A stretch of 64,000 bases of DNA. Origin: Absidia repens (taxonomy: Eukaryota; Mucoromycota; Mucoromycetes; Mucorales; Cunninghamellaceae). The stretch covers positions 221,001-285,000 of the forward strand of contig MCGE01000037.1 of assembly GCA_002105175.1 (NCBI GenBank). The letters are read 5' to 3'. Positions 13,925 through 17,742 of this stretch are shown one piece after another (within the stretch, counting starts at the first letter, position 1; every line of letters begins with the position of its first letter). The position numbers were made by a program, and so were the translations under genes. The notes under the pieces are model-generated. The model was given only the letters and a program-made list of their open reading frames with translations. It was not told the origin of the DNA and did no database searches.

Positions 13925-14927
13925 GTATAGTTTGATTAGTTTGCTTTTTGCTTTTTACTTTTTATTTATTTATCGAATAAAAGGATTGAATGATAGATGA
14001 ACTACTTTTGTCTTTTTTTTTTTGTTTTTGTTTTTCATTTTGCTGGAGGTTGATGACAATTAATATAGGATATGTTATGTAAGCAATAGGAGGAGATGGG
14101 TTAAAGAATATTGAATGATTACAAAGGTGATTGTCTGGGCGTGAAGATAGGTCTAAATCTATATGTATATCGTACATTTTGGGTCGAAGTATGTGATATG
14201 GGGTTTTATAAGGCATCGTATCGGATGACAGACAAAGTGATGTTTATGATATAATACAATAAAGTTGTGTTTGGTGAGATATTTATCTACTATATATACA
14301 TATGCAGTGTGCTAAATACTGTACTGTACAGGGAACAATTCTATCATAGGTGACCGTGTATTGAGTTTGATCACGAGGACCATGATAATAAATAGTTTCA
14401 TCGATGTTGTCAATGTGATGTATGGATGGAAATTGTCGTGAACCGAATTACGTTCAAGTATAAAGCATAAATGAGCGGAGTCGTTCTGAATAATTGATGT
14501 CAAAGCCAAGTAGCGCATCGTCGTCATCACCACATGATATGCTATTAAAGCGACTGGCCCAAAAAGGGAGTTATTGCCCCCCTCTTTTCGTTAAACTACA
14601 TGTCATTTCGAAACAAACACTATATTTTATAGTATGAAGAAGTGTATAGAAACTAGGATATGGTATGATACTTTTCTATGTTTTCACACGTACAAATGTA
14701 TGATATAAAAATGAGAGCTATAAATAAGCTGATCAAATTCTGTCAGAGCAAAGTATGTATTACAAAAATATGACAGCCGGATGATAAGTGAGTCCAATGG
14801 AATATATGGAATGAGGTTTTCTCTCTCACCTATTTGATGTTAAGAAACTTCTAATTTGATTGGTCGTTCCGACGAGAGGGGGTAAAGGTCATGTGGGCCC
14901 CAGATTGAAAGTCATAATGAAAATTTT

Positions 14928-14942
14928 ATTATAAAAAGGCGG
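14928..14942 (+). promoter_or_regulatory. TATA-like box of the antizyme gene
   Basis: ATTATAAAAAGGCGG lies upstream of a pyrimidine-rich leader and is the only TATA-like element close to it. Its role is inferred from position. Confidence 0.35.
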
Positions 14943-15459
14943 ATAAAAGTTCCCTCGTCTATTTATTTTTTTCTTCCCTCCACCTTCCATTTCTTACAGT
15001 TTATAGTATTTTACTGTCGGTTCATCCATTCTTTTCTTTTTTTTATTCAGACAATAAAAAAAAAACAAAGACCTTTATCACAAATACACAAATACACACA
15101 CCCTCACAACACACCCATCTTCTTTTATATACTTTGAAACCCTCCATCTTCCCCCCACCTCTCCCATCTTTTTCTAGTTGTTTAGGGCGTTTTTAGGTAT
15201 TTATAACTGCAATAACCCCAATATTGTTGAGGCAGTGAATTTAGTACTCATCTTTATTTCTATTAATATCCTTGTATTTAGTAAAAGCGCTCGCCTGGAA
15301 AAATATAATAGCACTGGACAACACACTCATCATCTTTCTCTTCTCCTCCAACAGCATCCTCTCGAAGGCTACCAAGGAAAAGAATTTTAGTAGTACTAGT
15401 AGTAATAGTAGTAGTAATAGTAATAATAGCTTTTGTTTTAGTAAATTTATCCTCACACC

Positions 15460-16254
15460 ATGATTATCGCAAAACCCAACAAAAAACCAATATCCATACC
15501 TCTTCAAACTTTTCCTTTGTCAAATGGACCAAAGTCTTCTATTGAACCAGCTCTTCCTGACACCATCACCTTTTCTAATCGCTATGGTAACAAAATTTAT
15601 ATATTATCTCAAATGTTGATGACTAACTAATACGGGGTATTTTTCATAGAGGGGGATTTTACGAACAAGGTGTTTGGAATGAACAATGTGATTAATAAGG
15701 TAGAACAAGTCCTGACAATTACAACAACAAGACCAACAGGAGTATATTATCAAAGCCGCAAACTTCAATGTCAAGCCAGTATTTACAACGATACCGTCTT
15801 CCTCTCTTCTCCATTTGTAGGCTCCAACTCAGGTCTGATTAATTGGGCGCCTGGTGATTTTCAATCATGGTAAGTAACTGAGCGATTTAGTTACAAGTGC
15901 TGATTAAGTTTATTCACTCACTTGTCGTTTTTTATTTTGTTTTATTTATTGGCCTTAGTGTTACCCATTTGATCGAATTGGCTGAAGAAAAGACTGGCTG
16001 CAGCGCAATGGTGGTAGTTATTGACAAGCATGACAAGATTGAATGTAAGTTTCAAGATATATATAGCCTTACCGAGAAATTAATTTGATTATTCTCCTTT
16101 TTTATTTACCCTCTTCTTCTTCTTCTTCTTCTTCTTCCCCTTCCCCTTAGTGAATACCATCCTTCGTGCTTTTATGTACATGGGCTTTGAAATGCTGAAT
16201 CCTTCCCTTTACAATCAAGATCCTCGTTTTATTCTCGTTGGATATGAATTTTAA
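15460..16254 (+). CDS. OAZ: Ornithine decarboxylase antizyme
   Basis: Exons 15460-15586, 15650-15869, 15959-16044 and 16151-16254 give 178 residues in one frame. The C-terminal half carries the antizyme fold signature: SIYNDTVFLSSPF, LIELAEEKTGCSAMVVVIDK, ILRAFMYMGFEMLNP and a final FILVGYEF, matching ORF2 of known antizymes in order and length. Antizyme binds ornithine decarboxylase, sends it to the proteasome and blocks polyamine uptake. Known antizymes need a +1 frameshift at a stop, usually TCC-TGA. That string is present at 15555-15560 in the correct relative frame, about 148 codons before the end. However, the ORF2 frame is also open upstream to an ATG at 15460, and the frame preceding TCC-TGA is closed by another TGA at 15543. 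The true 5' structure is therefore unresolved. Confidence 0.85.
15555..15560 (+). promoter_or_regulatory. Candidate +1 programmed frameshift site (TCC-TGA)
   Basis: TCC TGA followed by CAC: slipping one base gives TCC then GAC ACC, which enters the antizyme frame. This is the most common antizyme shift site. Whether it is used is uncertain because the zero frame has a TGA five codons earlier (15543-15545). A CCAG at 15547-15550 could act as a splice acceptor that removes that stop. Confidence 0.5.
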
Positions 16255-16574: not shown

Positions 16575-17742
16575 ATGAAGGTCATCATTGCCTCTCGTAA
16601 TCCAAAATCCAAAACATTCCCCATCACTTTGGATTTGGCTGGTGATGCCTCTTCTTTGACATTGACCGATGTATCAAAAGCTCTTCATCAAAAGCTTCCA
16701 AAATACACACCTGACCGACAACGTATTACTACTCAAGATAAAAAGGTGTTGGTGGACGATAAGTCTTTGGCAGACTTGGGTTTAAAGGACGGTGATACCC
16801 TTCAATTCAAAGATTTAGGTAAGCTCTTAGACAAACACGATATTTATGTTTTTATTGTATCAACACGCACTTTTTGTTCTGGAAAACAGGACCTCAAATC
16901 GGTTGGCGTACCGTGTTCTTGATTGAATATGCTGGCCCCATGCTTCTTCATCCTATCTTCTATTACCTTCCAAAACTGATTTATCGTTCGGGCTTTGAGC
17001 ATTCCTCTTTACAGAAATGGACTTTTGCTATGGTGATGCTTCATTTCCTCAAACGCGAACTGGAGACTCTATTTGTGCACCGTTTCTCTCATGGTACTAT
17101 GCCCTTCTTTAATGTGTTCAAGAACTCTGCTCATTACTGGTTCTTATCCGGTATCAATTTGGCCTACTGGGTATATGGGCCTTGGTTCGCTCAAGGTGAA
17201 AAACTGGCTGTTCGCAGTGACGTTTGGATTTATGGGTGTGTTGCTGTCTGGGCTGTAAGTAGAGTGACCTTGAGGCTATGGTAGTAGTAGCCGGGTAGAG
17301 TGAAACACTTGATACCTGATGTTTTTACTAATATTTTACTTAATATTACTACATAGTGGGCCGAACTCTCAAATTTGATTACTCATGTCACATTGCGTAA
17401 CCTGCGCCCACCTGGTACTCGGGTCCGTGCCATTCCTTTTGGTTATGGTTTTGATCTGGTGTCTTGTCCCAATTATCTATTCGAAACTATTGCTTGGACT
17501 GCCGTTTGCTTTTTGACTACAAGCTGGAGCGGTAAGTTTTCTATAAATGGTCGACCTCAGTTTACCTCTTAAACGTACGAAATTCAATACATTGCTTTTT
17601 TTTTTTTTTTTTAGCCTTCCTCTTCAACGTTGTTGCTACTGGTCAAATGTATGTCTGGGCTGTCAAGAAACACAAGAACTACAAGAAAGAATTTAGCACG
17701 TATCCCCGCAACAGAAAAGCTATGATCCCCTTTATCGCCTAG
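16575..17742 (+). CDS. TSC13: Very-long-chain enoyl-CoA reductase (Tsc13/TECR)
   Basis: Four exons (16575-16818, 16890-17254, 17357-17531, 17615-17742) total 912 nt, giving 303 residues, close to the yeast protein. The enzyme performs the last step of the ER fatty-acid elongation cycle, reducing trans-2-enoyl-CoA with NADPH, and so supplies very-long-chain acyl groups to sphingolipids. Residues 1-80 form a ubiquitin-like N-terminal domain (LADLGLKDGDTLQFKDLG). The rest is a multi-pass membrane protein with the conserved stretches HFLKRELETLFVHRFS, LRPPGTRVRAIPFGYGF and SCPNYLFE of the steroid 5-alpha-reductase-like C-terminal domain. It ends with a basic Lys-rich cytosolic tail. A polyA-type AATAAAG follows at about 17792. 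Confidence 0.95.

Follow-up and report, generated by a model that had tools for sequence, protein, structure and literature searches.

An antizyme gene of Absidia repens very probably decoded without +1 frameshifting, with a layout shared by Mucorales homologs

In a window of 64,000 nucleotides (nt) from Absidia repens (Mucorales; contig MCGE01000037.1, positions 221,001 to 285,000 of the forward strand, in an assembly of 47.4 Mb), the gene at 15460–16254 on the plus strand very probably encodes a genuine antizyme of ornithine decarboxylase (ODC), translated from its mRNA with no +1 frameshift. Antizyme is a brake on polyamine production and its synthesis normally requires the ribosome to skip a base (+1 shift). 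This frameshifting is textbook recoding, kept from yeast to mammals because the shift itself senses polyamines. Mucorales use the standard genetic code. As read from the sequences, the shift-free layout is common to both A. repens copies of the gene and to every sampled Mucorales homolog with its N-terminus in view. An earlier sequence-only reading of this DNA had left three options. Its first one, that this lineage has a form independent of the shift, is backed by the paralog, by conservation of an N-terminal motif in 54 of 69 homologs and by frame-specific constraint.

Reading frame and start codon

The gene was modelled in four exons with a total length of 537 nt, encoding 178 amino acids (aa) without internal stops. 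The antizyme frame runs open from 15460, the position of the first ATG, and the sequence upstream is free of ATG back to 14917. The sequence-only reading had reported this open frame, an exon total of 537 nt and a plus strand without ATG from 14919 to 15459; the same ATG, exons and length were recovered, and no ATG was present from 14918 to 15459. Because a TAA lies in the antizyme frame at 15442–15444, the frame must begin with the ATG at 15460, barring a shift within the five intervening codons. In a diverged paralog on contig C34 of the same genome, which has the same shift-free layout and an encoded N-terminal sequence identical to that of A. repens protein P0006, the leader likewise carries an in-frame TAG upstream of the ATG, with six sense codons between them. 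The AUG-free leader of 540 nt departs only slightly from expectation: ATG was also missing from 5% of 2000 dinucleotide shuffles.

Constraint on exon 1 was assessed by comparing codons 1–20 of the window gene with those of the paralog in all three frames, using the proportions of synonymous (pS) and nonsynonymous (pN) differences. The ATG frame gave a pS of 0.74 and a pN of 0.14, with 4, 2 and 11 differences at the three codon positions, a pattern that points to selection on exon 1 as protein in the shift-free frame. The frame required for a +1 shift showed no sign of constraint (pS 0.12, pN 0.32); in the third frame, pS was 0.34 and pN 0.27. The gene thus has an open frame, started by ATG and constrained as such, and a +1 shift from an upstream open reading frame (ORF) is not needed to read it.

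The protein scored 45.2 bits against PF02100 (E 9.9e-12), above the curated cut-off of 24.2. A structure predicted for a 93% identical relative shows the antizyme fold, with human antizyme 1 as the best structural match. Of 13 ODC-contacting residues taken from PMC4595762, 10 could be mapped, H202, Y216 and E219 lying outside the alignment; four (E126, K139, L149 and R150) are identical to human AZ1. Two ODC-like loci above cut-off are present in the same genome (contigs C39 and C7), both with IKSNP and WGPTCDS, which we take to be the lysine and cysteine active-site motifs; on that understanding neither gene resembles an inactive antizyme inhibitor.

Homologs in the Mucorales

Three protein searches, one of which scored the best 7990 candidates by shared words, yielded 69 distinct homologs; the third, started from the Phycomyces protein, added no further sequence. 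By our own count the named sources cover 25 genera, presumably all Mucorales. The sequence-only reading had proposed an alignment of related Mucorales loci as a check. Carried out on proteins, this comparison placed the ATG and the N-terminal motif MIIASPAKKEISIPLQ (matched as a regular expression) in the antizyme frame of 54 of the 69 homologs, at residue 1 in 53 of them and at residue 15 in one (P0058). The N-terminus of the window antizyme is predicted to be disordered, yet it is highly conserved: over the 36 rows of alignment A2, the mean majority identity was 0.84 for residues 1–16, 0.34 for the linker (17–33) and 0.86 for the core (110–135). Seven entries are raw ORFs in which the motif is followed through exon 1 and on into the intron (P0038, P0050, P0064, P0065 and P0067–P0069), showing that the DNA itself carries this frame and that gene prediction did not create it. 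The spliced ORFs P0008, P0013 and P0025 come from contigs of 1093, 1093 and 923 bases, which are probably complementary DNA (cDNA). The models P0031 (Phycomyces), P0047 (Spinellus) and P0036 (Mycotypha) lack exon 1. Pattern searches for Mucorales DNA returned 127 genome-contig and 74 viral-contig matches, none of them from a relative.

A tree was built from the window protein and 35 homologs; its deeper forks have weak support, and long branches occur in several rows. Each of the two A. repens copies forms a starred pair of its own with a counterpart from A. cylindrospora (97/99 and 100/100). The duplication therefore predates the split of these species and the shift-free layout was kept in both lines. 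Two antizyme copies were also seen in Rhizopus delemar, Sporodiniella and Dichotomocladium (P0027/P0033, P0043/P0048 and P0044/P0049 respectively); in the last two genera, one of the copies sits on a long branch.

The shift junction and alternative readings

The sequence-only reading had noted a TCC-TGA at 15555–15560 in the frame and at the place of the canonical shift site, with the preceding frame shut by a TGA at 15543, and both observations were verified. The place fits a shift junction, since Asp34, encoded at the TCC-TGA, is the final residue before the first strand (residues 35–40) of the modelled antizyme fold. Given Leu-Pro-Asp in the ORF frame, a TCC-TGA is expected in about 10% of cases from the codon usage of the window (22 open stretches of at least 150 aa), and the hexamer may be a relic or may be there by chance. 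Among 36 aligned homologs, three have the Pro before Asp34 that TCC-TGA requires, seven have Gln, Glu or Lys there, and in three Asp34 itself is Asn or Ala. In 10 of the 36, no choice of codons yields NNN-UGA at the junction, a count whose placing depends on the alignment. The paralog reads TCC-TAC-TGA at the matching junction. A shift codon followed by UGA, as expected of +1-frameshifted antizyme genes, is thus not conserved at this place.

Several observations weigh against the reading of the gene as a genuine ODC antizyme decoded without a shift. The TCC-TGA stands at the canonical position and in the right relative frame, where the hexamer is rare when Leu-Pro-Asp is not presupposed (4 in 7895 codons). 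Six of the 10 mapped ODC contacts are changed relative to human AZ1 (K153 to Gln, A157 to Thr, V158 to His, F192 to Tyr, L193 to Met and I197 to Met), and the frame tests compare a single paralog pair. The motif is not visible in 15 of the 69 homologs, which are fragments (P0051–P0055, P0059, P0060, P0062, P0063 and P0066), partial or short models (P0031 of Phycomyces, P0034, P0036 of Mycotypha and P0047 of Spinellus) or, in the case of P0018, a sequence that begins at an internal Met. As the sole Phycomyces, Spinellus and Mycotypha sequences are among them, a basal family could still shift. The three protein searches gave no named homolog outside the Mucorales, one of them covering the best 7990 candidates, so that the ancestral state lies out of sight. 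Finally, starting at a CUG in good context (GCACUGG), the would-be ORF1 frame of the paralog extends without a stop over 70 codons to a TAC-TGA precisely at the canonical position. This would suit dual decoding, in which the AUG yields the shift-free protein while translation from a leader CUG follows the ORF1 frame and, at the old junction, enters the antizyme frame by a +1 shift that polyamines stimulate. The 89% identity of the leader block between the paralogs and the partly CUG-initiated mammalian antizyme 3 (PMC5009743) speak for it as well. The CUG-started peptide of the window, however, runs in another frame than that of the paralog and stops at the TGA 15461–15463, and the two copies therefore do not share the fusion; the ORF1 frame is unconstrained over codons 1–20 of exon 1, and the homologs in which UGA is impossible at the junction count against it too. 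We consider dual decoding very unlikely.

An ordinary frameshifted antizyme would result if an unseen exon with an AUG were spliced to the AG at 15549–15550, four bases upstream of the TCC-TGA, from where ORF1 would reach it directly. This was the second option of the sequence-only reading (an exon joined to the CCAG at 15550), and it is even less probable: the paralog has no AG at the corresponding place (GAACAAAATCTTCC), splicing at 15551 would discard the N-terminal motif of 54 of the 69 homologs, and with no ATG in 14918–15459 the exon would have to be more distant. The third option of that reading, a shift site relocated to the TAT-TGA at 15540–15545, has the correct relative frame in its favour; it is extremely improbable, since the paralog has no TGA at the corresponding place by sequence and alignment and the preceding frame is ATG-free back to 14917 and bears no sign of constraint. 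Hardly any credence can be given to an assembly or sequencing error that deleted a frameshift, as the layout is common to the paralog and 54 of the 69 homologs and nothing was found in favour. The hidden exon, the TAT-TGA shift and the assembly error were therefore rejected on the evidence of paralog and homologs.

The 5' leader

The leader appears to be spliced. A putative intron of 85 nt has a homologous counterpart of 91 nt in the paralog, with 43 of 83 aligned bases identical, against 88 of 101 in the leader stretch that follows. All four ATGs of the paralog nearer than −523 lie in its putative intron, and both A. repens leaders are AUG-free once spliced (each P about 0.05 from shuffles). 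A conserved element downstream of the intron is unique to the two antizyme loci of the genome: its 24-base core gave two genome matches with at most three mismatches, and a reversed-pattern control gave none. The element includes a 35-base identical run between the paralogs, though pS over codons 1–20 of exon 1 is 0.74.

Both leaders could encode a near-identical peptide of 22 residues started by CUG, LDNTLIIFLFSSNSILSKATKE in the window and LDNSLILFLFSSNSILSKATKE in the paralog. With five differences in 71 nt between the paralogs, too few to single out a frame, its standing as proven coding sequence was dropped. The CUG-started ORF is a weak candidate, with coding evidence from one paralog pair. 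Membership of the leader in a known RNA family was rejected, since the three hits with an E-value of 5 or less all fell far under the gathering scores. In both paralogs, base pairing between the two spliced leader exons is possible, with z-scores of −1.70 and −0.45 (−0.15 and 0.92 for a longer stretch), and an unusually stable structure was rejected; the downstream leader exon alone is less stable than shuffles (2.21 and 1.77).

Features of the locus

Coordinates are collected in Table 1. The next gene downstream, at 16577–17284, has at its start a ubiquitin-like domain of the TECR type (25.6 bits, slightly below the cut-off of 27) and perhaps encodes a very-long-chain enoyl-CoA reductase; the second of its exon pieces had no Pfam match.

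Table 1. Features of the antizyme locus, in window coordinates.
Feature	Position	Strand	Remarks
Putative leader intron, 85 nt, GT..AG	15197..15281	+	Homologous 91-nt intron predicted in the paralog
Conserved 5' leader element	15288..15382	+	89% identity between paralogs; unique to the two antizyme loci of the genome
Possible CUG-initiated upstream ORF, LDNTLIIFLFSSNSILSKATKE...	15314..15463	+	CUG in good context; TGA 15461–15463 overlaps the main ATG
In-frame stop TAA	15442..15444	+	Five sense codons between TAA and ATG 15460
Exon 1	15460..15586	+	Start ATG, N-terminal motif, variable linker and first part of antizyme fold; 93% identical protein P0001
Codons 1–16, MIIAKPNKKPISIPLQ, N-terminal motif in shift-free frame	15460..15507	+	54/69 homologs; identity; pN/pS against the paralog
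TGA closing the would-be ORF1 frame	15543..15545	+	Counterpart TGA not in the paralog
TCC-TGA in frame and position of canonical antizyme +1 shift site; may be relic or chance	15555..15560	+	One frame behind the ORF
Intron 1 (GT..AG)	15587..15649	+	Homologs agree with spliced form
Exon 2	15650..15869	+	Spliced form agrees with homologs
Intron 2	15870..15958	+	Gene model
Exon 3, within ODC_AZ core	15959..16044	+	Gene model and PF02100 match
Intron 3	16045..16150	+	Gene model
Exon 4, ends with stop TAA	16151..16254	+	Gene model and PF02100 match

Discussion

Shift-free decoding in the Mucorales would be a variation within a known protein family, and priority is not claimed for it. No paper on the decoding of Mucorales antizymes was among the matches listed in a literature search, whose reach did not extend to a 2007 work by Ivanov and Atkins, reportedly a survey of antizyme frameshifting. 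With the frameshifted antizymes SPA of S. pombe, OAZ1 of S. cerevisiae and mammalian AZ1 and AZ2, the Mucorales proteins share PF02100, the fold, some ODC contacts and a folded core that starts at the Asp after the shift junction; they differ in that the shift would be unnecessary, in their single AUG-started frame and in the N-terminal motif, seen here in Mucorales only. The Tetrahymena antizyme is stated to be decoded without frameshifting, UGA being reassigned to sense there, and is the sole case without a shift that is named in the antizyme section of a 2016 recoding review (PMC5009743). The first 300,000 of its 475,107 characters contain no match to zygomyc, Mucor or Rhizopus. In the A. 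repens gene, by contrast, the UGA falls outside the reading frame, and translation apparently starts at an AUG upstream of it, already in the antizyme frame.

In-frame constructs of S. cerevisiae OAZ1 are shift-free like the Mucorales antizyme, but they are laboratory constructs and not a natural gene. Polyamines still protect them from degradation and still promote that of ODC (PMC5349141), which indicates that a shift-free feedback loop is workable. Non-AUG starts or leader ORFs are described for the polyamine genes antizyme 3, AdoMetDC and antizyme inhibitor (PMC5009743 and PMC4505036), whereas the leader ORF of the window is a candidate only.

In the proposed mechanism, scanning ribosomes would traverse the AUG-free leader, initiate at the first AUG (15460) and then read on in one continuous frame through motif, linker and fold. 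Initiation in the ORF2 frame may have arisen slightly upstream of an ancestral shift at Asp34 and so bypassed it. The protein would still bind and inactivate ODC. As the shift-free layout is common to the Mucorales relatives, these fungi probably control antizyme some other way. Polyamine feedback, if retained, would target something besides the frameshift, most simply the stability of antizyme, as for the yeast protein, to which control by the leader might be added. The conserved disordered N-terminus offers itself as the candidate for a degron or for a sensor in the nascent chain, with the leader as a second candidate.

A wider proposal is tentative, and we think it possible but rather doubtful: the whole order may have dropped antizyme frameshifting under the standard code, the polyamine sensor having been relocated within the same mRNA, either to the spliced AUG-free leader with a CUG-started peptide overlapping the main AUG or to the N-terminal peptide acting as nascent-chain sensor or degron. 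Natural shift-free antizymes in a whole order would offer a ready comparison on whether the shift is essential for feedback or polyamine-controlled stability is enough, and in the Mucorales it would be possible to date and test both how the shift was lost and what took its place.
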